Shown in pieces: positions 3,170 to 34,905 of a stretch of 34,905 nt of DNA (the first letter of the stretch is position 1; each line of letters starts with the position of its first letter). The DNA lies in the IMG/VR virus record IMGVR_UViG_3300009529_000026, positions 1 through 34,905 of that record. One strand, given 5' to 3'. This DNA is from a virus. The notes under the pieces are model-generated. The model was given only the letters and a program-made list of their open reading frames with translations. It ran no database searches and was not told where the DNA came from. The position numbers and the translations under genes were made by a program.

Positions 3170-3272
3170 ACAACGCATCGCCATCAAACAGTATGGGATT
3201 CAGCGCTCGGGCACCAACTACCTAGAGAAGCTCGCCAAGCTCAACTTCGGGTACGCTCCGGAGGAGGCCTGA
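3156..3272 (+). pseudogene. 38-residue sulfotransferase-like N-terminal stub
   Basis: A short GTG-started frame with a G-rich ribosome site overlaps the previous gene by 14 nt. Its TGA overlaps the next ATG. It encodes YGIQRSGTNYLEKL, which resembles the 5'-phosphosulfate-binding loop at the start of PAPS-dependent sulfotransferases (consensus near SGTxxL). Only this N-terminal segment remains, so it cannot be an enzyme. It is either the remnant of a deleted sulfotransferase or a peptide kept for translational coupling to the following gene. Confidence 0.6.
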
Positions 3273-4132
3273 TGGGCCGCCATGCCAAGTTGTGCATCTG
3301 CGTAAGGTGCCACGACTACCCTGACTTCGTGCTCGACGAGGTGGACTCGATCTTCCATTACTCGACGACGGCGCCGCATGTCATTCTCGCGATTGATCGC
3401 GGCTCGCGTGGCGACCCAGCGAAGCAGAATCAGATCGCCGAGTACGTGAAGGTGCACTACCCCCAGGTTGGGGTCTACAAGTCGGGGTACCAGTGGGGTT
3501 GGGGTGCGGGCATGTACGGTTTGCTCTGCGACGCCTTGGAGTGGGCAGACCAGCACTACAGCTTCGATCACTTCCTGTCACTCGACTACGACGCCCTGTT
3601 CATAGGCGACGGCGCGGACGCGCAGACAATCGAGGACGCGCAGAAGCCTGGCATCGGGCTGGTCGGTACCGTGACTCCGATTGGCAAGACGTGGAAGCAG
3701 ATGTTCGATCGACGCTGGGCACAGATCATGGGCATGACCGGCGGCCGCCAGCCTCCGGCTGGCTGGGAAAGGCACTGTGTGTATGGCGCAGTGATGTGTC
3801 TGACCCGGCCGTGCATCGAGGGCATGCGACAGCTCGGCTACCTACTGGGGCAGTTCCGAGACACACGTAAGTCGCTCGGGATCTCGGATGACCCGTGGCT
3901 CACGTTCCTGGTGAAGACCGCTGGCTACGAGATCAAGAACAACAAGGGCTACTGCTACAACGTTTGGAAGCACCCCGAGGACTACCGGCTAACAACACAC
4001 CGTCGGCCTGAGCTGAAGATCTGGCATCCTGCCAAGATGGCACCCGGCGGCCGCAAGACTGACGAGCGAATGGAGCTGCTCTGCCGGAACTACTTCAGGA
4101 GAAAGCGTGGCAAGAAGGGTATCGGCAAATGA
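3272..4132 (+). CDS. Putative glycosyltransferase (GT-A-like)
   Basis: A 286-residue protein. An N-terminal alpha/beta region ends in a FLSLDYDALFIGDG stretch (about 101-114) that resembles the metal-binding DxD segment of nucleotide-sugar-dependent GT-A glycosyltransferases. The C-terminus is rich in Lys/Arg. The family is not certain. The start overlaps the stop of the 38-residue stub, and its last bases overlap the next gene, a clear GT2 enzyme, which supports a sugar-transfer role. The acceptor and donor cannot be read from the sequence. Confidence 0.65.
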   Translation: MGRHAKLCICVRCHDYPDFVLDEVDSIFHYSTTAPHVILAIDRGSRGDPAKQNQIAEYVKVHYPQVGVYKSGYQWGWGAGMYGLLCDALEWADQHYSFDHFLSLDYDALFIGDGADAQTIEDAQKPGIGLVGTVTPIGKTWKQMFDRRWAQIMGMTGGRQPPAGWERHCVYGAVMCLTRPCIEGMRQLGYLLGQFRDTRKSLGISDDPWLTFLVKTAGYEIKNNKGYCYNVWKHPEDYRLTTHRRPELKIWHPAKMAPGGRKTDERMELLCRNYFRRKRGKKGIGK

Positions 4133-4854
4133 TGATCCTGATCCCAGCGAAGAACGCGCAGAATACGATACGGCGTGCGCTGCTCTCGGTGGCCAACCAG
4201 GTAGACCCGCATTGGACGGCGCAGGTCTTGGTCGATTGTTCAACTACTGATGACACGTACAAGAAGGTACGCCTCGTCAAGCAGGAGCTGAGCTGCGGTG
4301 GCAACATCCATGTGAACATCAGCAAGAGACCAGGGCTGCCGAATGTCTATCGCGAGCTGATCGATAGGGCAGAGCCTCGTGATGGGATCTGTGGTTTCCT
4401 GGATGCCGATGATCGTTTGTCGCCAGGCGCGGTCAAGAAGGTCCGGCCGCATTACCTGACGGACAGGAAGCTGGGGCACCTTTGGTCCCAGTTCGCGCAC
4501 CACCCAAGTGGCGCTCGTGGGTTCTCCACCCACCTGCCCGGGGGGAAGAGTCTTCTGCAGGCGTTCAATGGTGGCTGGTGGGGAGCCCAGCACTTCCGCA
4601 CGTTCAGGAAGAGCGTGTACGACGAGTCGCCATACGATCTGCAGCTTGACATCCCGTATGCGACCGACTTCAACCTGGCGCTCGTGCTCGCGGCCACAGA
4701 CTGCAAGGCAAAGTTCCTGCCAGAGGTCTTGTACTACTACCACCGCACGCCATCGGGAATCACGGTGTCGCGGAAGGGACGGCAGACGCGTGATTGTCGC
4801 GAGCTGCGGAACAGGTTCCAGCGATGGTCCAGGGGGAAACGATGCGCATCCTAG
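4129..4854 (+). CDS. Glycosyltransferase family 2
   Basis: A 241-residue GT2-type protein. The N-terminus (ILIPAKNAQNTIRRALLSVANQ) is the usual first strand and helix of the GT-A fold, and FLDADDRLSPG (about 90-100) carries the DxD metal site (D92, D94). It lacks a transmembrane segment, so it should act in the cytoplasm. It overlaps its neighbours by 4 nt upstream and 13 nt downstream. It probably transfers one sugar of the glycan built by this island. Confidence 0.85.
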   Translation: MMILIPAKNAQNTIRRALLSVANQVDPHWTAQVLVDCSTTDDTYKKVRLVKQELSCGGNIHVNISKRPGLPNVYRELIDRAEPRDGICGFLDADDRLSPGAVKKVRPHYLTDRKLGHLWSQFAHHPSGARGFSTHLPGGKSLLQAFNGGWWGAQHFRTFRKSVYDESPYDLQLDIPYATDFNLALVLAATDCKAKFLPEVLYYYHRTPSGITVSRKGRQTRDCRELRNRFQRWSRGKRCAS

Positions 4855-5771
4855 TCGCACAGATCTACGGCCTCGGGAACGCGATCTTGACAACGCCTCT
4901 ACTGAAGGCCTTGTCTGTGCTCGGTGACGCGGGCAACAGGACCCACGAGGTCCACGTCGTAGCTGACCCCAAACGGAAAGCAGCGATCGAGGTCCTCAAA
5001 ACGTGCCCAGGTGTTAAGAAGATATGGGGCATGGGAGACACGAACGGCATTCAGCGGTACCACTTCGACGTGCTGATCATGTGCTGTGACTACGCACCGA
5101 TCGTGCAGCGGTTCAAGATCCCCAGGGTTGAGTGGGCGTATCTTCGACGCAATCCTGGTGAGGACCGGGTGCAGTGGTTCCAGCGTTGGCCGGTGCACGA
5201 GATGGAGATGGCCTTTGCTGTTGCCAGGAAGTTCGGCTTCAAGTCTCCGATGCCAGAGCCCCATGTGCCTTCGACTAAGGTCGACATCACATACCCTGGC
5301 CCACGCCTCGCGCTCGGCATAGGGTACTTCAAGGGTGACGACTGGAGCAAGAAGAAGCACTGGGGCAATGAGAACTTCGTCGAGATCGCCAAGCGATTCA
5401 GGATGTTCGGCGGCATGTCCTTCCTACTCGGTGACAAGAAGGACTATGAGTGCGATGGTCGAGACATCGTGTCCGAGGCTGGGGACAGCATCATCTCGTT
5501 GTGTGGCAAGCTCGGTCTGCGCGGCACCCTGGGAGCCCTAAAGTCGTGTGACATCTATCTGGGGAACGACACTGGCCTCGCGCACGCGGCGGCCGCCTAC
5601 GGCATGCCTACGCTCTCGATCTTCAAGCCGTGGAACCACAGCTTCGTAAAGAACCGGCCGTACGGAGAGCAGGGCCACTACGCGGTTGAGTGGTCTGGTT
5701 TGGATATCGTTGACGCGGTGTGGCACTGGCTTCAGTACGAAGTCGAGCGGCTACCGGAGAAGAAGAAATGA
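4842..5771 (+). CDS. Glycosyltransferase family 9 (heptosyltransferase-like)
   Basis: A 309-residue protein if started at ATG 4842, which has an AGGGGG site 6 nt upstream and places the conserved MRILVAQIYGLGNAILTTPL segment at the N-terminus. An earlier in-frame start is unlikely. The C-terminal GNDTGLAHAAAAYGMPTLSIF motif is diagnostic of the GT9 GT-B fold, whose known members transfer ADP-heptose to lipopolysaccharide. The length is close to the usual 320-350. In a phage the donor may differ. The neighbouring enzymes suggest a shared glycan product. Confidence 0.85.
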   Translation: MRILVAQIYGLGNAILTTPLLKALSVLGDAGNRTHEVHVVADPKRKAAIEVLKTCPGVKKIWGMGDTNGIQRYHFDVLIMCCDYAPIVQRFKIPRVEWAYLRRNPGEDRVQWFQRWPVHEMEMAFAVARKFGFKSPMPEPHVPSTKVDITYPGPRLALGIGYFKGDDWSKKKHWGNENFVEIAKRFRMFGGMSFLLGDKKDYECDGRDIVSEAGDSIISLCGKLGLRGTLGALKSCDIYLGNDTGLAHAAAAYGMPTLSIFKPWNHSFVKNRPYGEQGHYAVEWSGLDIVDAVWHWLQYEVERLPEKKK

Positions 5772-5800
5772 GATGCCCTATCTGCACGAGGAGCCACTAG
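5768..5800 (+). other. 10-codon mini-frame MRCPICTRSH
   Basis: A tiny frame overlaps the GT9 stop (ATGA) and ends just before the next gene. The sequence MRCPIC resembles the zinc-knuckle start of some bacterial methyltransferases and may be a relic of a deleted gene. Alternatively it only couples translation between the two flanking genes. No function is claimed. Confidence 0.25.
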
Positions 5801-5801
5801 C

Positions 5802-6596
5802 ATGGGCAAGTATGTCATCGGCAGTGGTTGGTACTGCAAGCAACCGGGTGGGACCAGTGGCGCCGTACACGGGCACCCCCAGGTTGGCGAGGCCGTGATT
5901 CGCGGCCTGGAGTGGCACGAGGTTTGGAAGTACTTCCTCTTCAGATACACACAGCCAACAAAGGTAATCGTTATCGACTCGGCGTCCCCCTACAAGCCGA
6001 AGCCAGACCCACGCATCGAGTGGGTGCAACTCGACGAGAACTACCAGTACAACTCGAAGACCCACTTCAACGGTTGGATTCGTGGCTTCATGCTCGGTGC
6101 GGCCTACGCGTGGAACTGCAACGCCAACTTCATCTACGTCGAGCAGGACTGTCTGGTTGTAGGCAAGAACTGGATGAACGCCGTTGAGAGGGCGGCTGAG
6201 GGTGAGTTTCCGCTCTTCGGCCAGAGGTTCCGCAGCCCGGTCCAGCAGAGCTTGGTCTATCTGCCGTACGCATCAATCCAGAAGTTTCTCTACCTGCTCA
6301 CCGCACAGAGGAATGCGATGACCTGTGAGCAGCGGTTCCACAATACGTCCAAGGGCAAGGCTGGCCTTCCATACAAGAACATCCCGTTCGGTGTTGGCCG
6401 CGCCCGTCCAATCGATTGGAAAGCGAAGCACCTCTACGCGCAGCATTGGTCGAAGCATGAGCTGACTGCACTTAGCAAGCGTGAGGGTGTGAACGGGATG
6501 ATCAGGGGTCTACTCGGAGGAGGGGACAATGAAGGTTGTAGCGTTCACACCGATCCGGTTGAACAATGTCAGGCTGCCGAACAAGAATCTGCTTGA
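5802..6596 (+). CDS. Putative glycosyltransferase, GT-A-like
   Basis: A 264-residue protein. NFIYVEQDCLVVG (about 109-121) looks like a hydrophobic strand ending in an acidic ExD metal-binding segment, as in GT-A enzymes. PTKVIVIDS (52-60) fits an earlier strand of the same fold. The rest is unfamiliar. Its last 68 nt overlap the start of the cytidylyltransferase gene. A sugar-transfer role is inferred from these motifs and the flanking genes. Confidence 0.6.
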   Translation: MGKYVIGSGWYCKQPGGTSGAVHGHPQVGEAVIRGLEWHEVWKYFLFRYTQPTKVIVIDSASPYKPKPDPRIEWVQLDENYQYNSKTHFNGWIRGFMLGAAYAWNCNANFIYVEQDCLVVGKNWMNAVERAAEGEFPLFGQRFRSPVQQSLVYLPYASIQKFLYLLTAQRNAMTCEQRFHNTSKGKAGLPYKNIPFGVGRARPIDWKAKHLYAQHWSKHELTALSKREGVNGMIRGLLGGGDNEGCSVHTDPVEQCQAAEQESA

Positions 6597-7173
6597 TCTT
6601 GGTGGCATGCCGCTGCTGAACTGGGCGATCAAGAGTGTCGACTGCCTGAAGGATGTCGACAACTACATCTGGTGCAGCAAGCCATCGATCGTCAAGAGCG
6701 TGATCTCAGACAAGGTCCGGTTCATGCGGCGGCCGAAGACTCTCGACGAGGACAATGTACTTGGAGAGGATATCTACCGATCGTTCGCGAGTAGGGTCGA
6801 GGCGGATGCGTACCTCCTCTACCACGTCACGTCACCGCTGATGAAGCTGAAGTACCTGCGCGAAGCAGTCGATGCCGTGACACAGAAGGGATACGACAGT
6901 GCGTTCTCTGTGTTCCCGGTCCAGACGTTCTGCTGGTTTGGCGGCAAGCCGCTCAACTTCCAGTTGGGTGCGATGCCGCGAACGCAGGACTTGAAGCCGG
7001 TGCAGCAGTTGACCTCCGGCTTCTTCTTGTTCACACGTGAGGTGATCATGCAGGGTGGTTGCCGGATCGGCCAGAAGCCAAAGGCCATCGAGGTCGACTA
7101 CCCATCGTCGATCGACATTGACTACAAAATAGACTACGACATCGCCCGGCTCCTGGTGGAGGCTGCCGCATGA
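6529..7173 (+). CDS. CMP-sialic acid synthetase-like cytidylyltransferase
   Basis: A 214-residue protein with the acylneuraminate/KDO cytidylyltransferase fold. The N-terminus VAFTPIRLNNVRLPNKNLLDLGGMPLL keeps the R-LP-KN signature of the nucleotide-binding loop. LLYHVTSPL (about 96-104) matches the conserved T/S-SP strand, and SIDIDYKIDYDIA near the C-terminus is the usual DID-D motif. It would activate an acidic nonulosonate sugar with CTP. No gene for making that sugar (NeuB or NeuC type) is in the window, so the precursor may come from the host. The overlap with the next gene is 4 nt. Confidence 0.85.
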   Translation: MKVVAFTPIRLNNVRLPNKNLLDLGGMPLLNWAIKSVDCLKDVDNYIWCSKPSIVKSVISDKVRFMRRPKTLDEDNVLGEDIYRSFASRVEADAYLLYHVTSPLMKLKYLREAVDAVTQKGYDSAFSVFPVQTFCWFGGKPLNFQLGAMPRTQDLKPVQQLTSGFFLFTREVIMQGGCRIGQKPKAIEVDYPSSIDIDYKIDYDIARLLVEAAA

Positions 7174-7928
7174 AAGTTTCCTATTTCACGACTTGTATGG
7201 GCCGGGTCTGCGACCTGGTCCAGGCCCTCCCCGAATCGATCAAGGGCCACAAGTGTGATCCGAACGTCGAGTTCGTTCTTCTGAGCTACAACGACAAGTC
7301 AGGCATGGCTGATTGGGTGCATATGAACTTGTGCGCCGAGTTAGCATCCGGGCGTGTGGTCTTTGCCGAAACAACTGAGCCTGAGTACTACCGTTTTGGT
7401 CATTCCCGTAACGTGGCGGCGCTACTCTGTTCAGGTGACATCATCTGTTCCCTTGATGCTGACAACATAGCCCCTGAGGGATTCTCCAGACATCTCCGGG
7501 TCCTGATGCAGTCGTTGAAGTTCCCTCTGATCACTTGTGACAAGAAGATCCGCCGAGGCTCTCGTGTCTCGTCGGGTGAGTGCTCTGGCAGAAAGGCTTA
7601 CAAGAAGAACCAGTTCGTTGAGATCTTGCGCGGCTATGACGAGAGGTTCGACGGGTGGGGCGCCGATGATGGCGATATCACCATGCGGGCGATCACTGCT
7701 GGGTTCAACGAGGTCCACTGGGAGCACTCCTACTACAAGCTCGTACCGAAAAGTTCGCAGGTGCTGTTCACACAGGACCCCAAGCGCATGTCTTCCTTGG
7801 CGACTAACCGTGTCTACCGGGACGGCAACATGGCCGAAGGTGTGGTCGGGGCTAACGTTGGGAAGCCATGGGGCGTTGCCAAGGTGAAGATCAACTTCAA
7901 GAAGATGGTCGACGTAGGAAGCCCCTAA
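7170..7928 (+). CDS. Glycosyltransferase family 2, galactosyltransferase-type C-terminus
   Basis: A 252-residue GT-A enzyme. IICSLDADNIAP (about 91-102) contains the DxD metal site. GYDERFDGWGADDGDITMR (about 155-173) is the conserved acceptor-side motif of the glycosyltransferase C-terminal domain shared by beta-4-galactosyltransferases and polypeptide GalNAc-transferases. It starts within the stop of the cytidylyltransferase gene and its stop overlaps the next start (TAATG). It probably acts on the same glycan. Confidence 0.85.
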   Translation: MKVSYFTTCMGRVCDLVQALPESIKGHKCDPNVEFVLLSYNDKSGMADWVHMNLCAELASGRVVFAETTEPEYYRFGHSRNVAALLCSGDIICSLDADNIAPEGFSRHLRVLMQSLKFPLITCDKKIRRGSRVSSGECSGRKAYKKNQFVEILRGYDERFDGWGADDGDITMRAITAGFNEVHWEHSYYKLVPKSSQVLFTQDPKRMSSLATNRVYRDGNMAEGVVGANVGKPWGVAKVKINFKKMVDVGSP

Positions 7929-8668
7929 TGCACAAGCAGACAGCGGCCGCTTGGTTGGAGATGCGTAGACAGATCACCTGGTACGACAGGCTGATGTCGC
8001 TGAAGAATGCCTACCGTAGTTTGGCAGGGACCTGCTTCGTCATAAGCTGCGGACCGTCTACGTCGGAGGTTCTTGCGAACAAGGAGTTCCGAAGAGCCTT
8101 GAAGTCGAAGCTGCTCGTGTGCATCAAGGGAGCAATCGACTACTACCCGAGACACTGTGACTTCCACATCTACAACAGTGACTACTCGATCGATGGCCGC
8201 CGGTACGAACATCCGTACACGACAAGGATCACGGTCCACAAGGACGCCTACAAGATGGGCTCTGACATCCACTTTCCCCTCCACCCGGAGCAGGGTGCCT
8301 CGGAGGGAAAGACGGGTCTGTCCGCAACGATATCAGCGCAGCACAACTGGGCTGACTGGGAGATCTCGAAGTCGTACAAGAGACCCTGGGGGCCTGGGGT
8401 GATGTCGGAGATCGGAATCTTTCTGCCAGTTCACCTAGGGGTGAAACGCATCGTCGTCATCGGTTGGGATCTCAATCCTAATGAACTGCGCCACTACTAC
8501 GACGACAGCGTCAAGAACCTGGAGAAGTACAAGCGCGAGGGCAAGTTGATCAGCGGATCGATCCCATCGTTGCTCGCCTGGTTGGAGACCATTGGTGTTG
8601 AGTTGGTGCTCTGCTCGCCGCGCTCAGCCCTGCCAATACCACAGGTCAGAATGGAGGACATACTGTGA
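7928..8668 (+). CDS. DUF115/sialyltransferase-like protein
   Basis: A 246-residue protein started at ATG 7928 in a TAATG overlap. Residues 34-44 (GTCFVISCGPS) and the later VKRIVVIGWDLNP segment match the first strand-loop (xGxGPS) and second strand of the DUF115 (motility-associated) and bacterial GT42-type sialyltransferase folds. With a CMP-sugar synthetase two genes upstream, transfer of a sialic-acid-like sugar is plausible, but the two families cannot be separated by eye. No membrane segment is seen. Confidence 0.65.
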   Translation: MHKQTAAAWLEMRRQITWYDRLMSLKNAYRSLAGTCFVISCGPSTSEVLANKEFRRALKSKLLVCIKGAIDYYPRHCDFHIYNSDYSIDGRRYEHPYTTRITVHKDAYKMGSDIHFPLHPEQGASEGKTGLSATISAQHNWADWEISKSYKRPWGPGVMSEIGIFLPVHLGVKRIVVIGWDLNPNELRHYYDDSVKNLEKYKREGKLISGSIPSLLAWLETIGVELVLCSPRSALPIPQVRMEDIL

Positions 8669-9963
8669 GGGTCTTATTCTTCAAGGTGCTGCAACGAAAG
8701 CAGTGGATCAGCCACCCATATAAGAGTCGCTACCTGGGCTTCACTCACCTGATCGATTACCTGCTCTCGAAGCAGCCCGAGCACGAGATCTTGTATGCGA
8801 CTCGGCTGGGCGAACTGAAGCAGATGAAGCCGGACCTGATCGCGATCTCGTCTGTCACCGAGTCGTACAACGACGCTATGTACACGGTCGAGTGGGTCAG
8901 GAAGGGTGGCTTCACCGGCCCAATCATCTTAGGAGGGCCACATGTCACGGCATTGCCTTGGACTATCCCGAGCAAGGCTGACTGTGCCGTCGTCGGTGAG
9001 GGTGAGGTCACGTTCGAGCAACTCGTGCGCGAGTACTCGAAGAACAGAAACCCGGACCTGAGTCAGATCCCAGGTCTTGCGTACTATCGAAAGATTCGCG
9101 GGTTGCCAGCGCAATTCACCATGACTCCGCCGCGAACGCCAGTGGTGCTGGACACATTGCCGGTCGACGTGACGCGAGATCCGAAGGTACTCATGGACAT
9201 CTCGACGGTTCGAGGCTGCCCCTTCCGGTGCGCTCATTGCGTGGAGAGACCAACGCAGGGCGAGCCACGGTTCCTCTCGGCCGAGCGCATGTATGCCCTG
9301 ATGAAGAGTCGTGTGGAGGCCACGGGCAATCCCAACTTCTTCTTCCAGGACGATACGTTCCTGGCCGGTGGAACCCAGAGGATCAGGGAGCTGCACAAGC
9401 TCATGTCCGACGACAACACGCTAGGCAAGTACAAGATCCGATCGATCAGCCTGAACGCCAACCTGGTCACACGTGAGAACCTCACGCTGATGAAGCAGAT
9501 TGGTTGCACGAACTTCGGCATGGGCTGCGAGTCGTTCAACCCGCGGGTGCTCGGGGACATGAAGCGCGGCTTCGTCAAACTGAAGCATCTGGACACCACA
9601 ATCAAACTCTGCACTGAGATCAAGGTGCGGCTCGGTGGCTCCCAGGTCTATGGATTCCCTGGTGAGACCGAAGCTGAGATGCTGGACAGCATCGCGATCG
9701 TGAAGGAGTACGAGCGCACGAGTGTGTTCCAGCACTGGGTCATCTTCGTCTGCACGCCGCTGCCTGGGAGCGAGTTGTGGTTCTGGGCCAGAGACCAGGG
9801 GGTCGTTGCCGACGCCATGGACTGGAGTCGTCTGCGCATCGATGGGAACATGCAGTACTTTAAGTCACCATGGATCTATCTCAACGAGGAACAGATACCG
9901 AAGCAGCGATTCATCGAGCTGCTGAAGAAGAACGGTCAAATGCCGAACGGCCATTTCATCTAG
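8665..9963 (+). CDS. B12-binding-type radical SAM enzyme
   Basis: A 432-residue protein started at GTG 8665 with a 4-nt overlap. Residues 1-125 form the Rossmann-like cobalamin-binding domain (IILGGPHVTALP, VVGEGEVTFEQL). The canonical DxHxxG cobalamin ligand is not obvious. C185-P-F-R-C189-A-H-C192 is the CxxxCxxC site for the 4Fe-4S cluster of radical SAM enzymes. VYGFPGETEAEM is the usual C-terminal motif of this subfamily. Known members methylate or rearrange unactivated carbons. In this island the substrate may be a sugar, peptide or nucleobase. Confidence 0.88.
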   Translation: MRVLFFKVLQRKQWISHPYKSRYLGFTHLIDYLLSKQPEHEILYATRLGELKQMKPDLIAISSVTESYNDAMYTVEWVRKGGFTGPIILGGPHVTALPWTIPSKADCAVVGEGEVTFEQLVREYSKNRNPDLSQIPGLAYYRKIRGLPAQFTMTPPRTPVVLDTLPVDVTRDPKVLMDISTVRGCPFRCAHCVERPTQGEPRFLSAERMYALMKSRVEATGNPNFFFQDDTFLAGGTQRIRELHKLMSDDNTLGKYKIRSISLNANLVTRENLTLMKQIGCTNFGMGCESFNPRVLGDMKRGFVKLKHLDTTIKLCTEIKVRLGGSQVYGFPGETEAEMLDSIAIVKEYERTSVFQHWVIFVCTPLPGSELWFWARDQGVVADAMDWSRLRIDGNMQYFKSPWIYLNEEQIPKQRFIELLKKNGQMPNGHFI

Positions 9964-9971
9964 GGGGACAG

Positions 9972-10571
9972 ATGCCACTCGAACGTCAGATGGGAAAGAC
10001 ACTCGCGGAGATCGAGACTCTCCACAAGGAGCGGTACTCGTTCGCGATGCCTTATGTGAAGGACAAGATCGTGGTCGACGCGGCCTGCGGCTGTGGCTAT
10101 GGGAGCTGCATGCTGGCCGGGACTGGCGGCGCCAAGACGGTTCACGGTTGGGATCGTGCCCAAGAAGCGATCACACACGCGAAGAGCTACTTTGATCGCT
10201 CCAACACTCAATGGGCAGTCCGAGATCTCGATGTTGATCCCTGGACGCTGCATGGGTCGCAGGCTGACGTTTTGGTGAGCCTGGAGACGATCGAGCACCT
10301 CAGTTCAACGATCATGGTGTCACTGCTGAAGATGCGCGGCCTCCTGGCTCCTGGAGGCATTCTTGTTTTCTCCCACCCAGCCCACGAAAAGGGCCGTGGC
10401 AACCACTTTCACAAATGGTTTGACTTGGACCCAGTGTTGGTGTTGAATGTTACGAAACAAGTCGGATTCGAGGTCGTCGATCACTGGGAACAGGTTCCCG
10501 GCCACAAACGTTACACCTATCACCTAGTTGCTGCGAGGAAGGTGCCATGCCAGGAATCAAGCTCGACGTAG
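9972..10571 (+). CDS. SAM-dependent methyltransferase
   Basis: A 199-residue class I methyltransferase if started at ATG 9972, which has a TAGGGGG site upstream. Motif I is VVDAACGCGYGS (34-45), DVLVSLETIEHL is the motif II/acidic strand region and LLAPGGILVFSHP is motif III. The length fits the Methyltransf_11/23 type. The substrate is unknown. It sits between two radical SAM genes and overlaps the next methyltransferase gene by 25 nt. Confidence 0.85.
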   Translation: MPLERQMGKTLAEIETLHKERYSFAMPYVKDKIVVDAACGCGYGSCMLAGTGGAKTVHGWDRAQEAITHAKSYFDRSNTQWAVRDLDVDPWTLHGSQADVLVSLETIEHLSSTIMVSLLKMRGLLAPGGILVFSHPAHEKGRGNHFHKWFDLDPVLVLNVTKQVGFEVVDHWEQVPGHKRYTYHLVAARKVPCQESSST

Positions 10572-11041
10572 GTGGTGGTCGGAACCCGGAATCGGGATTC
10601 AAGGTCCTCGATATAGTTTCGGCGCCTCACGTCGATTATGTGTGCCCAGCGTGGGACACACCACTCGAAGACAGGTCAGTGGCGAGCCTCCGGGCTCGCC
10701 ATTTTCTTGAGCACCTCACTCTTGCCGAGGCCGTCGCCACACTAAAGGAGTGGCACCGGATCATGCTACCTGATGGTGGTTTGGACGTCACGGTCCCCAA
10801 CATCCTCTACCATGCCCAACAGTTGGTGATGTCAGGGCAGTCTGAGTTTGTGTCAGAATCGAACTTCGACCACGCGATGGCTGGTTTCTATGGCTGGCAG
10901 AAGAAGGGTGAGACCATGGCCCACAAGTGGGGGTACACACCGAAGACTCTGGTGAAGCTCTTCTTGGATTCCAAGTTTGATGTGGTCCTGATGCCATGCC
11001 GTGCGTGTGACATTGTAGTGCACGCGAGGAAACCAAGATGA
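10547..11041 (+). CDS. Methyltransferase-like protein (short)
   Basis: A 164-residue protein. KLDVGGGRNPESGFKVLDI is a glycine-rich motif I followed by the acidic strand, and FLEHLTLAEAVATLKEWHRIMLPDGG matches the later core of class I methyltransferases. It resembles the small predicted SAM-methyltransferases often found in polysaccharide clusters. It overlaps both neighbours and probably belongs to the same operon. Confidence 0.8.
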   Translation: MPGIKLDVGGGRNPESGFKVLDIVSAPHVDYVCPAWDTPLEDRSVASLRARHFLEHLTLAEAVATLKEWHRIMLPDGGLDVTVPNILYHAQQLVMSGQSEFVSESNFDHAMAGFYGWQKKGETMAHKWGYTPKTLVKLFLDSKFDVVLMPCRACDIVVHARKPR

Positions 11042-12084
11042 AGGTCCAACTCTACATGTGTGGTGGCGAGCACCCGACCTCGGAGATCCCACTTGGTGTG
11101 GGCTATCTGCTCACCAACACGCTCGATGCCAAGCCAGTGTACGTGAAGGACTGGCGCGACCTTCATGGCGCCGACATCGTTGGGTTGTCCACAAACGCCT
11201 GGGGCCTTTCGGAAGCCTTTGACATTGCCCAGCGTCTCAGTGCCGCCAACGTGAACAGTAGGATCGTGCTCGGTGGCCAGGGAGCGCTGTGGCGGAAACT
11301 AGAGGAGTTCAATAGGCATCCGTTCCACAACATCGTCAGGGGAGACGGTGAGCGTGCACTGAACGCAATCATCATGGGCCACGTCGCGATGAAGACAGTT
11401 GTGGAGAAGCGGATCGAAGACATCGACACCCTGAAGTGGCCGGAGCGTGGTGTATGTGGTTCCTCGGTTCCGATCATCACGTCTCGTGGCTGTCCTTACA
11501 ACTGTGCCTTCTGTACATCACGCGCACAGTGGGGCAAGCCAAGGCTCCGGTCGGTGGCGAGCCTTGCAGACGAGATCAAGTATCTCCTCAGGCGATACCC
11601 ACACATGCAGGAGCTGTACATTCTCGACGACCTGTGGGCCTATCCCGAGGAACGATTCGACGAGTTCTTCGCGTGGTGGATGGGGCATGAACTGAACAAG
11701 AAGCTCGCGCTGCGGGGGTTCATCCGATCGAACATGGCGACGAAGAAGCTCTTCGTCCGCATGAAGAAGATGGGCTTCAGCAGGATCAGGTTTGGCGCCG
11801 AGACTGCGAGCCCGCGACTCCTGAAGCTGGTCAACAAGGGAGCGACGGTCGAGGACCACCAACGAGCTGTGGATCTGGCTGCCGAAGTAGGTCTTCCGAT
11901 CACAGCCTCGTTCATGTATGGTCTACCTGGTGAGACCAAGGAGGACCTGGCGCTGACTGCAAAGTTCCTGTCGAAGAACAAAGGTAAGTTGCGGCGCGAG
12001 GGCTGGTACAAGTTCAGGGCCTTCCCAGGATGCAAGCTGTGGGACGGCGAGAGCCCACTGAAGTACGACATGAGAGTGAGGTAG
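11038..12084 (+). CDS. Second B12-binding-type radical SAM enzyme
   Basis: A 348-residue protein. The N-terminal Rossmann-like domain (IPLGVGYLLTN, IVLGGQGALW) resembles cobalamin-binding domains but is short, at about 125 residues. C152-P-Y-N-C156-A-F-C159 is the radical SAM cluster site. MYGLPGETKEDL and a terminal FRAFPGCKLW segment match the subfamily. It differs enough from the 8665 gene that the two are not a recent duplication. It starts in a 4-nt overlap with the previous methyltransferase. Confidence 0.87.
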   Translation: MKVQLYMCGGEHPTSEIPLGVGYLLTNTLDAKPVYVKDWRDLHGADIVGLSTNAWGLSEAFDIAQRLSAANVNSRIVLGGQGALWRKLEEFNRHPFHNIVRGDGERALNAIIMGHVAMKTVVEKRIEDIDTLKWPERGVCGSSVPIITSRGCPYNCAFCTSRAQWGKPRLRSVASLADEIKYLLRRYPHMQELYILDDLWAYPEERFDEFFAWWMGHELNKKLALRGFIRSNMATKKLFVRMKKMGFSRIRFGAETASPRLLKLVNKGATVEDHQRAVDLAAEVGLPITASFMYGLPGETKEDLALTAKFLSKNKGKLRREGWYKFRAFPGCKLWDGESPLKYDMRVR

Positions 12085-12087
12085 ACC

Positions 12088-12894
12088 ATGCCACTGGGCG
12101 AAGGATACTGGTTGAATGCCAGGACTGGCGAGGAGATCGAGGTGTGGGAGCACGCCAAGACTGTGTTGGAGAATCCCACCAAGTTCGGGCTGCATCCCGA
12201 TGCGGTCGCTGACAAGAGTCAGGCTGTCTACGCTAAGGACCCCGGCATGCGGCGACAATTGCTTACGGACGTCATGAAGCGTGGATGGATCAGGGTCCGG
12301 TCGTACAAGGGTCGCAATGTGTTCGAGACCGCCGGGGTGAACGACGACGCGCTCTATTCGATACTGGAGTTCGCTCAGGCTCACAACATGTGGGACAACG
12401 ATCGGGTGTTGATCAACGATGTCACCAAGCCCGAGGGTCATGGCTCCATGTCGATGACGGTGGGCCAGCTGCAGAAGCAGTTCGGGATGGGTGAGCAGTT
12501 GGTCAACGTTCGCAAAGTCGGTAGGTGCACGGCCACTGTCTGGACTGATCTGATAGAGGGAGTCGATGGGCCAGAGATACAAAGACTCCGCGAGCTGCTG
12601 GTGTACGCGGTCCACTTGATTCTTGACCCGTCGCACGTTCCCTGGTCGGTCACCGAGACCAGGGACAACCAAGACCAGATGAAGTTCGAGATCGTTGCGT
12701 ACAACTACAGCATGCTCACTGAGAGCGAGCTGCAGCCAATGCCAGTGTACGGCCTGAAGACTCCGATGGAGCATCTGGACAAGATGATGCAGGGTGTGAA
12801 CAACGTGTTGAACACCAGCATCAAGCGAGAATTACCTGGCAAGTTCTCTGCTGGCGTGATCGAGGTAGAGCAGCACACAATCACGAGGCTGTGA
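12088..12894 (+). CDS. Unrecognised phage protein
   Basis: A 268-residue protein with no motif I recognise. The first 80 residues contain LNARTGEEIEVWEHA, a basic helical stretch and KRGWIRVRSYKG, which look like a small alpha/beta domain. The middle is mixed and the C-terminus (MEHLDKMMQGVNNVLN) is helical. It starts 3 nt after the radical SAM stop, and its stop overlaps the regulator gene. Its place at the end of the modification operon gives no firm clue. Confidence 0.7.
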   Translation: MPLGEGYWLNARTGEEIEVWEHAKTVLENPTKFGLHPDAVADKSQAVYAKDPGMRRQLLTDVMKRGWIRVRSYKGRNVFETAGVNDDALYSILEFAQAHNMWDNDRVLINDVTKPEGHGSMSMTVGQLQKQFGMGEQLVNVRKVGRCTATVWTDLIEGVDGPEIQRLRELLVYAVHLILDPSHVPWSVTETRDNQDQMKFEIVAYNYSMLTESELQPMPVYGLKTPMEHLDKMMQGVNNVLNTSIKRELPGKFSAGVIEVEQHTITRL

Positions 12895-13181
12895 CATGCA
12901 CAATCGCAAGAAGGGGACGGCGAGTGCGTCAGCGGCAGGATACACCGGGGTGCAAGAGACTCCTCCAACTCCTTGGACGTAAGCTCGCCGAGTATCGCGA
13001 GACTCTTGGAGTGACTCAGACTGAGCTGGCCCGGCGAGTCCGGGTCTCGCGCTTTCAGATGTGCAAGCACGAGGCAGGCTCGGCCGAGATGCCAGTGACT
13101 AGGTTCTACAAGATCTGTGAGGCGCTGAGCATCAATCCAGCGGATCTCATGAGGTCAGTGTCACGCTCGATGAAGCCATAA
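12891..13181 (+). CDS. XRE/Cro-CI family transcription regulator
   Basis: A 96-residue protein with a helix-turn-helix of the XRE type at about 29-89: LLGRKLAEYRETLGVTQTELARRVRVSRFQMCKHEAG...FYKICEALSINPADLM. The first 25 residues are basic and may be disordered. The GTG start overlaps the previous TGA. Four near-palindromic 16-bp sites lie directly downstream, the likely operators, so it may regulate the next gene and possibly its own operon. It has no ligand-binding domain. Confidence 0.85.
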   Translation: MTCTIARRGRRVRQRQDTPGCKRLLQLLGRKLAEYRETLGVTQTELARRVRVSRFQMCKHEAGSAEMPVTRFYKICEALSINPADLMRSVSRSMKP

Positions 13182-13189
13182 CAGGAGGG

Positions 13190-13198
13190 TTATCCACA
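13190..13198 (+). promoter_or_regulatory. DnaA-box-like sequence
   Basis: TTATCCACA is identical to the strong bacterial DnaA-box consensus. It overlaps the first 16-bp operator-like palindrome. A single box does not make an origin, and the match could be a by-product of the TGTGG-type repeats. Confidence 0.35.
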
Positions 13199-13315
13199 AG
13201 ATGTTGTGGTCGTGCAGAAGGGACCACAACAAAGTGTGCTTCAAAACGGGGAGGACGACCAGAAACGTCCACAACATCTTGTGGTGGCCAGAAAAACGAC
13301 CACAACAAGATGTGG
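13194..13315. promoter_or_regulatory. Cluster of four 16-bp operator-like palindromes
   Basis: Sites lie at 13194-13209 (CCACAAGATGTTGTGG), 13223-13238 (CCACAACAAAGTGTGC), 13269-13284 (CCACAACATCTTGTGG) and 13300-13315 (CCACAACAAGATGTGG). The first and third are exact reverse complements of each other. Half-site CCACAA recurs with TTGTGG or a variant. Spacings from start to start are 29, 46 and 31. Directly downstream of the XRE regulator gene, they are probably its binding sites. Confidence 0.75.
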
Positions 13316-13467
13316 AGCACGCGGAGAACGGCTGATTCGACCAATTGCACTAAGGACCAGATAGCGAATATCAAGACTAGGGTAGTTGTAGAAGAAGGTG
13401 TCGTAGAAGAAGAGTAATAAAAAGAACGGTGGAGTGTCTTCAGAACAGTGAAGGACTTGAAATAGCT
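13316..13467 (+). promoter_or_regulatory. AT-richer leader with a weak promoter candidate
   Basis: This stretch is richer in A and T than its surroundings and holds no gene. TTGCAC (13345-13350) with AATATC (13368-13373) at 17-nt spacing is a weak sigma70-like candidate. A short repeat, GTAGAAGAAG, occurs twice near 13388-13412. Transcription of the 13468 gene from here, under control of the operator cluster, is inference. Confidence 0.35.
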
Positions 13468-14073
13468 ATGGGAGAAACAGAAGAAGTGGTTGGGAAGCAG
13501 GAGAGCCAAGAGCTGTTGGCAGTCCACCGGCTTCTTAATAATCGATTAGAAACCATTCCTTGGCACGTGTCGAACGTGGGGCCAGAGCTGGCGGAGCTTC
13601 GCACCTGGGAGCATCGATCTCTTCTTCAACTCCTTTGCAAAGGAGACCAGGTCTTCTGTGCGTACGATACACTGGGGATACTGACACATCTGTGTCTGAG
13701 CCTGAAGCACCCGACAGTCTACCACTCTGTTCGAGACCTCTACTCATTTGCCGAGGTGCCAAAGCTCAGGCTGATCTGCGATCCCCTCCACATGCCACCG
13801 AAGCACGAGTTCTTCTACCACGACAAGTACGACGTCGTCATGAGCACGTTCCTGTTCTCAGTCGGGCAGGACCTGGAGGAGAAGGCCTACACCTTCCTGG
13901 CAACCATGGCCCGCATCCTGAAGCCAGGAGGAAGACTGATCGTCAGTTACTGCGCCAAACAGCCTGACACCGTGATCGAAGTTGCCGAACGGATCGGAAT
14001 GTTCTTCAATGTTATCGAGTCACGTTCGGGTGCCAAGGGACATTGTGGGGTTCTGTCGATGGGAGCGAGCTAA
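13468..14073 (+). CDS. Methyltransferase-like protein
   Basis: A 201-residue protein if started at ATG 13468. A GTG at 13429 in frame would add 13 residues. The C-terminal half reads DKYDVVMSTFLFSVGQDLEEKAYTFLATMARILKPGGRLIVSYC, which is the motif II to III core of class I SAM methyltransferases. A clear motif I glycine loop is missing; LLQLLCKGDQVFCAYDTLG may be a degenerate version. It may be an inactive or divergent enzyme. Its stop overlaps the next start (TAATG). Confidence 0.65.
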   Translation: MGETEEVVGKQESQELLAVHRLLNNRLETIPWHVSNVGPELAELRTWEHRSLLQLLCKGDQVFCAYDTLGILTHLCLSLKHPTVYHSVRDLYSFAEVPKLRLICDPLHMPPKHEFFYHDKYDVVMSTFLFSVGQDLEEKAYTFLATMARILKPGGRLIVSYCAKQPDTVIEVAERIGMFFNVIESRSGAKGHCGVLSMGAS

Positions 14074-14870
14074 TGCCTGCAAGCAAGAAGCCACCAATCG
14101 GTGTGGCCATCCTGGCGTACGAAGGATTCGATGATCTCGTCGCGGCCGTCCGCGCCGTGAAGTTCAACACCACTATGGCCTACCAGCTCTTCGTCTTCGA
14201 CAATTCCGAGCAGACAAAGATGATCCGTGAGTACCTGAAGGAGTGCCACAAGGATGTGGTCCTTCTGTGCGCGAAGCGCAACGTTGGCTGCTCGGTGAGT
14301 AGAAACATCATGCTGTCCGAGTACCTGAAGCGGTACCCCGGTGGCGAGTTCCTCTGCATCATGGACCAGGATGTCCAAGTGAAGCAGGGCTGGCTACGAG
14401 CCATGGTCCAGGTTGCTCGCGCTCACGAGGACTGTGGCATCGTTGCGTGGCCGCTCGCCAACAGATACAACCCGGTCACTACCAAAGGTGTGGTCTCAGA
14501 GGTTGCGTCGGTCTGCAACCTCCACCGCGTGAAGGCACTGCTCGGTATCCAAGAGCGATGGGATGGCCCTTGGGAAGAGCGCATGTTCATGCACAAGTTT
14601 GACTCGCTGATCTGCCAGCGACAGAACCTGCTCGGCTGGCGCACGTACCTTGTGCTGAGTGAGTACGCCCCAAACGTCAGCTGGCCGGACCAACCTGCCC
14701 TGATCAAGCACAACCACCCCCACGAGGGCGTGCGCAGGAACCCGAAGTGGAAGGCTATCTTTGATCGCTCGAAGAGGATCTATGCCGACATCATGAAGTC
14801 CGAAGGCTGGCAGCAGTGGCAGCCTCCCGCGCCCTACCTGAAGTACAGCGGACCCAAGCGAGGACGCTGA
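14073..14870 (+). CDS. Glycosyltransferase family 2
   Basis: A 265-residue GT2 protein starting in a TAATG overlap. The N-terminus IGVAILAYEGFDDLVAAVRAV and FVFDNSE are the first strands of the GT-A fold. LCAKRNVGCSVSRNIM matches the conserved N-G-x-xx-RN segment, and FLCIMDQDVQV (94-103) holds the DxD metal site. It is the last gene of the modification island before the virion genes. Confidence 0.85.
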   Translation: MPASKKPPIGVAILAYEGFDDLVAAVRAVKFNTTMAYQLFVFDNSEQTKMIREYLKECHKDVVLLCAKRNVGCSVSRNIMLSEYLKRYPGGEFLCIMDQDVQVKQGWLRAMVQVARAHEDCGIVAWPLANRYNPVTTKGVVSEVASVCNLHRVKALLGIQERWDGPWEERMFMHKFDSLICQRQNLLGWRTYLVLSEYAPNVSWPDQPALIKHNHPHEGVRRNPKWKAIFDRSKRIYADIMKSEGWQQWQPPAPYLKYSGPKRGR

Positions 14871-14979: not shown

Positions 14980-16062
14980 ATGCAGATATTCAGGTCAGCC
15001 AGAGAAGCAGTAGGCTCGCTCACCGAGGAGACACTCCCTGGTGACTTCGTCCGCGTATTGTCGAGTGACCCCAATACCCTGGTATTCGGTCGCGTCCTCG
15101 ATCCTGCGGACCCTGGCCTGGATCAACAAGTCCCGAGCGGCCGCGTCCCTGTCATGCTCGGTGAAGGCAACATCCAGCAGTTTGACCCAGCAGACATCGA
15201 GAAGATCAATGCGGCTGAGCTGCCGTCCGAGCTGCTCTCTGTGCTCAGCGGACAAGGAGAGGACCTCCAGACGGAGGTCCTCGCTGACTTGGACCCTGAA
15301 CTTGCCGAGGAGTTCGGGCTCACTGGCCGTCCAGACCCCGAGCGCTCGATGGCGAACAAACTCGCGCAGCGGATGCCGGATGTCCGCAACCGGAAATCCC
15401 GAGCCATGAAGCGTAACTGGCGACGATCGAAGGGTCGCTCTGGTGATCGTAAACTCGGAAACGAGCCCGCCCTCATGCGGATGAACCCACAGCACACGAC
15501 CTTTGAGTCGTTGGTGGAGCAGGTGTCGCAGGGATTCGGCGCCTATGGTGTCAACTCCGATGTCATGGCTGGGACTCCCGGAAACATGGGTGGCGGAACA
15601 TCCGACGAGGAGGAGATCCTTGGCCAGGAGAACGTGACCTTCGAGGGCTCGAACGCGATGGACCCCGAGGTGGCGTTCAACCTCACGACCCGTGTCTTCG
15701 AGGCCTCGAACGACATCGTGAAGTCTCTGGCGCTCTCCAACGGGATGCCCTACTTCACATGGCTTCAGGACGATCCCGAGGAGGGCATCGTTCGCATCAA
15801 GATCAATGGCGCCTGCCCGAAAGAGATCGTCGAGAAGTTCACCCGGAACCTGAAGGACCTGGAGATCGTAGAGCTTGAGCACCCCGAGGGGTCGCACGAG
15901 AACAACGATCTTGTTGGCAGCTGGGTGTTCGAGACGCAGCTCCCTGGGTTCCCCGAATTCGAGGAGCCAAACTACGAGCCCGAGGAGCCACAGTACGGGC
16001 AGACCGGAGAGGCCCCGGGCGAGATCGTTATACCAGAACAGCCTGTGGCCGGAATGGGGTAA
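14980..16062 (+). CDS. Probable virion structural protein, first of the late module
   Basis: A 360-residue acidic protein without a motif I can name. ATG 14980 follows an in-frame stop directly, so no longer start exists. The ribosome site is poor, since GGGAGG lies about 19 nt upstream. The middle (about 125-165) is very basic (KSRAMKRNWRRSKGRSGDRK) and the C-terminal 30 residues are Pro/Glu-rich. The position before decoration and protease genes suggests a head or portal-associated role, but this is context only. Confidence 0.65.
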   Translation: MQIFRSAREAVGSLTEETLPGDFVRVLSSDPNTLVFGRVLDPADPGLDQQVPSGRVPVMLGEGNIQQFDPADIEKINAAELPSELLSVLSGQGEDLQTEVLADLDPELAEEFGLTGRPDPERSMANKLAQRMPDVRNRKSRAMKRNWRRSKGRSGDRKLGNEPALMRMNPQHTTFESLVEQVSQGFGAYGVNSDVMAGTPGNMGGGTSDEEEILGQENVTFEGSNAMDPEVAFNLTTRVFEASNDIVKSLALSNGMPYFTWLQDDPEEGIVRIKINGACPKEIVEKFTRNLKDLEIVELEHPEGSHENNDLVGSWVFETQLPGFPEFEEPNYEPEEPQYGQTGEAPGEIVIPEQPVAGMG

Positions 16063-16064
16063 GC

Positions 16065-16445
16065 ATGCTCCGAAGTGCACAATTTACTGCCTTCGTGAAG
16101 GACCAGTTGACGATCCGCGACATGATGCCGACCCACAGGAGCGGCGCGGTCATGTGGCTTTGCAACTACTCGTCGGCGGCCCGGAACGTTTTCTGTGACT
16201 GGTCCGAAGGTGGCGTCACGTGGACCGGTGTCAATCTCACTGGCGGCGCCCGCCAGAAGGTTGGTCTCGGCGTCACTGTTCAGCCGAGAGGAATCGTTGG
16301 CGTCGGTTTCATTCTGCCCGACGACAACATCGACGCGAAGTACCTACGCATACGACTGGACGACACGGCAGACGGGGATGGCGTGTTCGTTCAGCTCGAA
16401 ACAGCAGCCCCCATCCCCGATTACCCGCTCATGTCATGGAGCTAG
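16065..16445 (+). CDS. Small virion protein, possible capsid decoration
   Basis: A 126-residue, beta-rich protein of unknown family that starts 2 nt after the previous stop. No cysteine motif, membrane segment or signal peptide is evident. Its size, predicted beta content and position before the protease and capsid genes fit a capsid decoration or head-fibre protein, which is inference. Confidence 0.6.
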   Translation: MLRSAQFTAFVKDQLTIRDMMPTHRSGAVMWLCNYSSAARNVFCDWSEGGVTWTGVNLTGGARQKVGLGVTVQPRGIVGVGFILPDDNIDAKYLRIRLDDTADGDGVFVQLETAAPIPDYPLMSWS

Positions 16446-16458
16446 GGAGTAGGAGAAG

Positions 16459-16839
16459 ATGAACCGCCACAGTCAGGTCTTCACGGCACCCAGTGGTGTC
16501 AGCCGCACGCTGCTCGGACCGATGGCCCTCACGAGCCACCTGGTCGAGAAGCACAAGCAGCCGTACATGATCCACAACTTCGGCGACTACACGGCCAGGT
16601 TGACGTTCCAGTACTCGATCGACTCGGGTGCGACCTGGTTGACGATCCCGAACGCTGTGGGGATGACGAGCGGCTCGCTCGCCAACGTCGACATCCCGGC
16701 CAAGACCGAGCGGACGATCGAGATGGCGTTCCCCAAGGGCGATCGCTTCCGCATCATCGGCCAGGGCGTCGGTGGCACAACCGACGGCCGCATCGAGATG
16801 CTCGAAGTCGACTTCGAGAGCAACCTCAGCGACCGCTAG
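16459..16839 (+). CDS. Small virion protein, possible capsid decoration
   Basis: A 126-residue, beta-rich protein with alternating hydrophobic strands (ARLTFQYSIDSGATWLTIPN, RTIEMAFPKGDRFRIIGQG). It has the same length as its upstream neighbour and the two may be diverged relatives, although no clear identity is visible. A GGGAGTAGGAGAAG ribosome site precedes ATG 16459. A decoration role is inferred from context. Confidence 0.6.
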   Translation: MNRHSQVFTAPSGVSRTLLGPMALTSHLVEKHKQPYMIHNFGDYTARLTFQYSIDSGATWLTIPNAVGMTSGSLANVDIPAKTERTIEMAFPKGDRFRIIGQGVGGTTDGRIEMLEVDFESNLSDR

Positions 16840-16869
16840 TCGCTGAGCACGGGTAGGAGGGTGGACGTC

Positions 16870-17298
16870 GTGAACAAGCTCCTAATCGAAGCGATCACGG
16901 CGTCCACACCTGCTCAGGTCTCGGAGATGATGACCGCCATGGGGATGGGTCCGTACGAGAAACCTATGGCGACCGTCCGAGACCAGACGGTCCGCCGCAA
17001 GCGGAAGAGGAAGAAGGCCAAGCGTGGAGATCCTTCCGATCAACGATCCGGCGCGGATGCGCGGCAAGCCGAAAGTGCCTCCGATCGTGCCCAAAGACTT
17101 GTTGCCCAGGCTATCGGGTCTGGACTGGATCGACTTGAGGCGTTCGGAGGGGATGCAGCGAGTGGTGATCGTCCTGCCGGACGGGGACAGCTATTCGACG
17201 ACGATACGCGGGTTCCTGTGGGCGCTGGAACGGCTCGGAATCTCGAACGGCGAATCCGTGGCGGACTATCTCTGGAACTTTCGGGAAGCAACGTTTGA
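16870..17298 (+). CDS. Small basic protein overlapping the next gene
   Basis: GTG 16870 lies 9 nt after a perfect AGGAGG site, so translation starts here. The first 50 residues look genuine (VNKLLIEAITASTPAQVSEMM...) and end in a Lys/Arg run (RRKRKRKKAKR). After about 17024 the frame runs 275 nt antiphase to another gene, and its residues (Ala/Arg/Gly/Asp-rich) look like a by-product. Either the C-terminus is incidental or a +1 frameshift joins this start to the 17024 frame. Confidence 0.5.
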   Translation: MNKLLIEAITASTPAQVSEMMTAMGMGPYEKPMATVRDQTVRRKRKRKKAKRGDPSDQRSGADARQAESASDRAQRLVAQAIGSGLDRLEAFGGDAASGDRPAGRGQLFDDDTRVPVGAGTARNLERRIRGGLSLELSGSNV

Positions 17299-17359
17299 CC
17301 TGAAGACCGGTGTCTGCGCGCAGACATACGAACGGAACAGGAAGATCGGACGACCATGA
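17024..17359 (+). CDS. Small phage protein upstream of the protease
   Basis: A 111-residue protein with normal composition (PPIVPKDLLPRLSGLDWIDLRRSEGMQRVVIVLPDGDSY...). GTG 17024 has only a weak ribosome site. The frame is +1 relative to the 16870 gene and overlaps it by 275 nt. Its end overlaps the protease ATG by 4 nt, typical of coupling. No family is recognised. Confidence 0.65.
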   Translation: MEILPINDPARMRGKPKVPPIVPKDLLPRLSGLDWIDLRRSEGMQRVVIVLPDGDSYSTTIRGFLWALERLGISNGESVADYLWNFREATFDLKTGVCAQTYERNRKIGRP

Positions 17360-18774: not shown

Positions 18775-18819
18775 TCCGCCGGGGACGAGATAAAGGAACC
18801 GTTGAAAGGATTAGGGGAA

Positions 18820-34640: not shown

Positions 34641-34905
34641 GTGGCTCTGGACCCGGGACGAAAACGAATACGTCGCCAGCTCGGTGTCAACCCGACTGAC
34701 GAGAACGGCAATCCCGTCGTTGTGTACCCCAACATCCGCACGGGGCCTACAGGAGCAACGGGTTTGCCAGGACCTCGTGGCATCAAAGGCACCGATGGCA
34801 CCCGTGGCGCGACAGGTCCCCGAGGACCCGTCGGCGCAGCGACAGGCAACACAGGCGTGACGGGCGGTACAGGCTCGACTGGCGGGGCTGGCAGTACGGG
34901 TGTCA
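34641..34905 (+). CDS. Collagen-like fibre protein, partial (runs off window end)
   Basis: GTG 34641, with an AGGAGG site about 10 nt upstream (TAGGAGGTAACTC), opens a frame that stays open to the window end. After about 35 residues ([31 protein letters not shown] is the start) it turns into Gly-X-Y triplets such as [13 protein letters not shown] and [13 protein letters not shown]. Phage collagen-like proteins of this type are usually tail fibres or head fibres. The C-terminal binding domain is outside the window. Confidence 0.85.

Follow-up and report, generated by a model that had tools for sequence, protein, structure and literature searches.

A glycan-gene island with a putative CMP-sugar activation step beside the head genes of a T4-like phage

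The window analysed here is the whole of a 34,905-base IMG/VR virus record (IMGVR_UViG_3300009529_000026), and its positions 3272–14870 hold an island of 15 genes, all on the + strand and mostly overlapping by 4–94 bases, which encode glycosyltransferases (GTs), a homologue of cytidine monophosphate (CMP)-sugar synthetases (g6529), radical S-adenosylmethionine (SAM) enzymes and methyltransferase-like proteins (Table 1). The original prediction, made from the sequence, had described a glycan island with a CMP-sugar activation step, encoded in nearly continuous overlapping genes. The first part holds, given the phage capsid, protease, sheath and baseplate genes on the contig, the NeuA/KdsB fold predicted for g6529 and the intact DxD of its metal site. 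The second part applies to most of the segment 3272–12894, where the spacings are -4, -61, +30, -68, -4, -61, -4, -94, -25, -4, +3 and -4, but not to the 3' part, which is broken by the gene at 12088–12894, the helix-turn-helix (HTH) gene at 12891–13181 and then a gap of 247 bases. Several gene starts are preceded by G-rich Shine-Dalgarno-like stretches. No transmembrane-like stretch was detected in the 14 island proteins tested, nor in any tested protein of the three islands compared below (those of the window, G001 and G010), and thus neither a membrane flippase GtrA nor a membrane GtrC, as in GtrABC seroconversion, was found among the island genes; family scans of 3272–14870 also gave no tail-fibre gene.

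To the right of the island lie a gp23-type major capsid gene (PF07068, 4.5e-42) and an S77 prohead protease gene (PF03420, 7.7e-10), followed by sheath-, tail- and baseplate-type genes that were recognised by inspection, many of them collinear in relatives. All three features sought as marks of a T4-like phage, namely the gp23 capsid, the S77 protease and a contractile sheath, were thus present (PF07068 4.5e-42, PF03420 7.7e-10, phrog_138 2.7e-41), the sheath gene being called by inspection and by collinearity in relatives, without a family-library scan. Since capsid, protease and sheath-, tail- and baseplate-type genes all stand on the window, it is, as judged from its genes, a fragment of a T4-like myovirus. 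tRNA genes and two phage genes lie to the left of the island.

Five or six glycosyltransferases had been proposed for the island. Pfam supports four of them, g4129 (GT2), g4794 (GT9), g7170 (GT7C/GT2) and g14043 (GT2), and g3272 can be added as a fifth because two other phages have an orthologue of it at this locus and its DYD motif is invariant; it has no Pfam or PHROG match, none was found among 50,697 phage records, and genome scans were empty. The sixth candidate, g5802, matches no family, and its profile comparison with g3272 was not significant. Both predicted radical SAM enzymes, g8665 and g11038, were recovered with the CxxxCxxC motif intact, and a B12-binding domain exceeded the cut-off in g8665 only. 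Among the three proteins described as methyltransferase-like, the assignment is firm for g9870, moderate for g10547 and weak for g13429.

Table 1. Genes of the island and of the adjoining structural block, with the matches that bear on their assignment.
Gene	Assignment	Position	Strand	Matches and relatives
g3272	Core glycosyltransferase-like, GT-A-type DYD, same locus in three phages	3272..4132	+	Orthologues 51% G001, 29% G010/L046
g4129	GT2 glycosyltransferase, core	4129..4854	+	PF00535 7e-11; 45% G001, 30% G010
g4794	GT9 (heptosyltransferase-like), core; likely start ATG 4842	4842..5771	+	PF01075 1.2e-15; PDB 3tov, 1psw; 39% G001
g5802	No family match; possible divergent GT-A protein, at motif level only	5802..6596	+	
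g6529	NeuA/KdsB-fold cytidylyltransferase, putative CMP-sugar activation	6529..7173	+	PF02348 2e-9
g7170	GT7C/GT2-like glycosyltransferase	7170..7928	+	PF02709 25.5 bits (cut-off 23); 29% homologue in G001 island
g7868	Weakly sialyltransferase/DUF115-like; candidate user of CMP-sugar	7868..8668	+	phrog_4603 1.9e-4; MptE 0.032
g8665	B12-binding radical SAM enzyme	8665..9963	+	PF04055 4.5e-16, PF02310 1.8e-11; CPFRCAHC
g9870	SAM-dependent methyltransferase (firm)	9870..10571	+	PF13649 1e-10
g10547	Methyltransferase-like (moderate)	10547..11041	+	phrog_6636 6.5e-10, phrog_5399 7.6e-9
g11038	Radical SAM enzyme, degenerate B12-binding N-terminus	11038..12084	+	PF04055 2e-23; CPYNCAFC
g12088	No significant family, probably not glycan-related	12088..12894	+	
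g12891	Cro/C1-type HTH protein	12891..13181	+	PF12844 8.9e-8; 35% G001 counterpart, also ahead of structural block
g13429	Weak methyltransferase-like	13429..14073	+	PF08241 0.0026, PF20922 4e-4
g14043	GT2 glycosyltransferase, core; likely start ATG 14073	14073..14870	+	PF00535 3e-8; 47% G001
Structural block	g14980, prohead protease 17356-18774, gp23-type capsid 18802-20328	14980..20328	+	Block kept in L002, L003, L005, L008

The description of g6529 as a CMP-sialic-acid-synthetase-like enzyme was borne out. Its match to PF02348 (CTP_transf_3) scores 38 bits against a cut-off of 22.6, and its best sequence matches in the PDB are the murine CMP-Neu5Ac synthetase 1qwj (6e-12) and the CMP-Kdn synthetase PpNeuA, 9t4z (1.7e-11). 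An AlphaFold2 model built from an alignment with six relatives (predicted local distance difference test score, pLDDT, 90; predicted TM-score 0.87) retrieved the same two structures with Foldseek as best matches (2.7e-17 and 6.2e-17), ahead of CMP-Pse and CMP-Kdo synthetases, and the NeuA/KdsB fold is thus confirmed at the level of the predicted structure. The protein retains Arg10, Lys19-Asn20, the PR.QD motif and the terminal DID metal motif. In the CTP loop, RLNNVRLPNKN in place of the usual ARGGSKxxPxKN, only the R, P, K and N are kept and GGS is replaced by LNN; a histidine also stands in place of the usual glutamine of QPTSPL, as it does in the cellular relatives L087 and L089–L091.

These substitutions bear on the sugar. 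That genes making a nonulosonate are absent was correctly predicted, as NeuB was found neither in the window nor in G001, the 145-kb relative described below, but the host nonulosonate precursor that was taken to follow from this is not established: g6529 reaches 41 bits with the curated PseF equivalog model, whose cut-off is 206 bits, and its closest cellular relatives, 25–33% identical among 398 sampled genomes, have no NeuB-like gene in the five loci that were read over 16 kb, where glycan- or polysaccharide-type genes are present (typed by eye from translations). Since g6529 lacks the usual GGS and Gln and its nearest cellular relatives lack NeuB, the activated sugar need not be a nonulosonate and may be another CMP-activated acid; that it is an acidic sugar seems probable.

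The proposal that g7868 is a sialyltransferase/DUF115-like protein holds only weakly (Table 1). No Pfam match over the cut-off and no PDB match were obtained, and AlphaFold2 run on the single sequence, without an alignment, gave a pLDDT of 34; a scan of viral sequences and a tblastn search of phages returned no homologue, and the comparison with the domain fused to NeuA in L099 and L085 (see below) was not significant. A GxGPS-type two-motif pattern occurs in 2 of 7 NeuA loci (the window and L099) and in none of 63 controls, with the first motif alone in 11 of the 63, a pattern that was defined after viewing these sequences and for which no enrichment is claimed.

Related islands exist in other phages, and the layout is therefore more than chance. 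The contig L002, 95–100% identical to the window, independently joins the end of g14043 (96%) to the capsid block, which speaks against a chimera. Nor is the island an assembly accident: G001, whose capsid is 73% identical, has four of the glycosyltransferases at this same site, ahead of the protease-capsid block, and carries other cargo. There, a homologue of the window gene at 2351–3169 is followed by those of g3272, g4129, g4794 and g14043. The remaining genes before the g14980-capsid block are, in order, those for a methyltransferase, a g7170-like glycosyltransferase, a polysaccharide pyruvyl transferase, a B12 radical SAM protein and a GT1, and then an HTH gene. The more distant G010 (G010/L046), with a capsid 50% identical, keeps two glycosyltransferases, g4129-like and g3272-like, and O-antigen-type cargo, the flank comprising the g4129-like GT2, PIG-L, a methyltransferase, WbqC, TylF, a second methyltransferase, a GT1-like gene, a UDP-GlcNAc 2-epimerase and the g3272-like protein. 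The GC content at third codon positions (GC3) is lower in island genes than in structural genes (0.73 versus 0.81, p 0.001), lowest in the methyltransferase cargo and close to the structural-gene value in the core glycosyltransferases. Both the comparison of relatives and the GC3 pattern suggest a resident glycosyltransferase core with acquired, replaceable cargo.

Outside the islands, several further features were noticed in these phages. In G001 (contig L035), a UDP-glucose/GDP-mannose dehydrogenase gene (10348–11595) lies about 4.6 kb upstream of the island, a phage-encoded transfer-messenger RNA (Rfam RF00023, 108.6 bits) is found at 9321–9723, and the homologue of the window gene at 2351–3169 (15053–16228), with a CxC...CxH (SWIM-like) pattern, holds an in-frame intein (PF14890, 4.7e-11), which the window copy lacks. 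A highly repetitive Cys-rich protein with CExxCxxxC repeats is encoded upstream of the G010 island (L083:4846–6072), and the window has a Cys-rich protein of its own at 1343–2209, whose repeated CxxCxGxG-type motifs look by eye like a DnaJ zinc finger and which has no significant family match. A collagen-like GXX repeat protein (34641–34904) is truncated at the record end. The major capsid protein (18802–20328, residues ~213–300) and a baseplate-type protein (32615–34630, residues ~472–650) have in common an insertion domain of ~80 amino acids, at most 47% identical, possibly an exposed surface domain. The nearest annotated capsids, of Listeria phage LIS04 and Bacillus phage SP-15, are only ~33% identical to that of the window; a genome-contig search with the capsid gave a single 33% match, in a Neisseriaceae metagenome-assembled genome, too distant for naming the host.

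NeuA homologues are also encoded by phages unrelated to the window. A wider scan found them in further viral contigs (L085, L099, L100, L101, L103 and L104). In L099 (6968–8278), NeuA is fused to a domain of ~195 amino acids and stands directly after the capsid gene (phrog_10, 9.6e-46) and before a connector-like/head-tail adaptor gene, and inspection places terminase-, portal- and protease-like genes upstream; the same fusion occurs in L085 (171–1454), just upstream of a head-tail adaptor gene (phrog_442, 2.1e-23). Both are HK97-type phages, and the C-terminal parts of their fusions are 49% identical; against the sialyltransferase PHROG the fused domain gave a weak match in L099 (0.005) and none in L085. 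In L100 (3774–6682), NeuA and NeuB (PF03102, 4e-67) have a protease-like gene on one side and the capsid gene (PF05065, 8e-56) on the other; a possible sulfotransferase was seen by eye between NeuA and NeuB. NeuA belongs to larger sugar-gene clusters in L101, L103 and L104, and a GT29 sialyltransferase match in L101 is barely above the cut-off. Phage NeuA is rare, though already known, since two phage proteins in BFVD carry the name CMP-NeuAc synthase or acylneuraminate cytidylyltransferase. In a phage collection queried with g6529 the only NeuA homologue was a Moritella bacterial contig, and a query with the Moritella NeuA returned, as weak matches, one 462-kb uncultured phage and two records annotated kdsB. 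What is new here, as read from gene order, is the presence of NeuA homologues within structural-gene blocks of unrelated phages.

Taking these observations together, we tentatively favour, with slightly less than even confidence, the hypothesis that the island forms a soluble module for glycan assembly, owned by the phage and placed beside the head genes, that decorates a virion protein in the cytoplasm. From host nucleotide sugars, the core glycosyltransferases g3272, g4129, g4794 and g14043 would assemble a short chain in the infected-cell cytoplasm, and the exchangeable cargo would diversify this chain: a CMP-activated acidic sugar would come from g6529 and be attached by a transferase, perhaps g7868, and methylation or remodelling of sugars would fall to the radical SAM and methyltransferase enzymes. 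The acceptor would be a virion protein, the likeliest candidate because the island adjoins head genes, has no export or lipid-carrier component and includes a NeuA homologue of a kind that recurs in capsid blocks of unrelated phages. We infer the enzymatic activities, the order of steps, the identity of the sugar and the virion as acceptor from sequence.

Several points weigh against this hypothesis. No acceptor was identified, no capsid gene was identified near NeuA in the fetched stretches of L101, L103 and L104, and the presumed late expression of the island is read from its position only. Genes of the kinds GT9, WbqC, pyruvyl transferase, PIG-L and epimerase are characteristic of pathways for host lipopolysaccharide (LPS) or capsule, and lipid-linked host precursors are also open to soluble glycosyltransferases. 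The original prediction had left capsid or tail protein, DNA and host envelope side by side as targets, and it is the host envelope that competes most closely with the virion. The island enzymes might extend or cap host LPS or O-antigen precursors in infection, altering phage receptors and blocking superinfection. We regard this as a real possibility, though one held with distinct reserve: the heptosyltransferase-like g4794, the cargo of relatives, typical of O-antigen clusters (WbqC, polysaccharide pyruvyl transferase, UDP-GlcNAc 2-epimerase and PIG-L, with UDP-glucose dehydrogenase in G001), and the polysaccharide-type clusters in which the nearest cellular relatives of g6529 sit all point to it, and the published reading of similar glycosyltransferase and radical SAM cassettes in T4-like pelagimyophages is that they modify the host O-chain (PMC7029224). 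However, the islands have no membrane protein, flippase, polymerase or GtrA-like gene, the island adjoins head genes with no tail-fibre gene inside, and changing the envelope late in a lytic cycle would be of little value. We slightly favour the virion over the envelope, mainly because NeuA recurs beside capsid genes in other phages.

The DNA is a far weaker candidate. Glycosyltransferases might modify the bases of phage DNA as in T4 or SP-15, and the T4-like capsid, the known role of some phage glycosyltransferases in DNA glycosylation and the place of Bacillus phage SP-15, whose DNA is hypermodified, among the closest annotated capsids (33% identity) are in keeping with this; yet thymidylate synthase/hydroxymethylase PF00303 was not found in the window or in G001, both possibly incomplete records, ThyX- and TET-type routes lying outside the search, and the glycosyltransferase families are of polysaccharide type, with CMP-sugar, pyruvyl transferase and WbqC genes having no known place in such a pathway, which makes DNA modification very improbable. 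It is also unlikely, if less so, that the island is a transient patchwork of host polysaccharide genes without coordinated function: cargo that differs almost wholly between relatives and its lower GC3 would fit, but two to four core glycosyltransferases persist at this site even where the capsids are only 50% identical, and reading frames, DxD and CxxxCxxC are intact.

More broadly, and with considerable caution, we suggest that phages may hold dedicated CMP-sugar pathways by which acidic, possibly sialic-acid-like sugars are placed on their own virions, the window being a many-gene version and the NeuA-transferase fusions of L099 and L085 and the NeuA and NeuB pair of L100 minimal ones. If the virion is the target, phages would own a set of several enzymes for virion glycosylation, including a CMP-sugar step and tailoring by radical SAM enzymes, and this could affect the charge, stability and recognition of the particle. 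With a core that is conserved and cargo that is swapped, the old question of what large phage glycan clusters do can be put to a direct test, and in smaller phages the NeuA-transferase fusion of the capsid operon would allow a test with a single gene.

The cyanophage P-SSM2, likewise a T4-like phage with polysaccharide genes, has gene clusters for LPS. In mycobacteriophages, phage glycosyltransferases are reported to glycosylate capsid and tail proteins, the glycans being found on the capsid and the tail tube (Freeman et al. 2023, as cited in PMC12619734); the window resembles that system in having phage glycosyltransferases, and its island has many more enzymes and a putative target. With the CMP-Neu5Ac and CMP-Kdn synthetases (NeuA; 1qwj, 9t4z), g6529 shares the fold and the conserved motifs named above, and it differs from them in LNN for GGS, in His for Gln in QPTSP and in having no NeuB nearby. 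The host-recognition-cluster cassettes of T4-like pelagimyophages (PMC7029224) are similar in belonging to T4-like phages, in their many glycosyltransferases and radical SAM genes and in their variability among relatives, whereas the window island adjoins the protease-capsid block, has no tail-fibre gene and combines a CMP-sugar synthetase homologue and two radical SAM enzymes with a conserved glycosyltransferase core.

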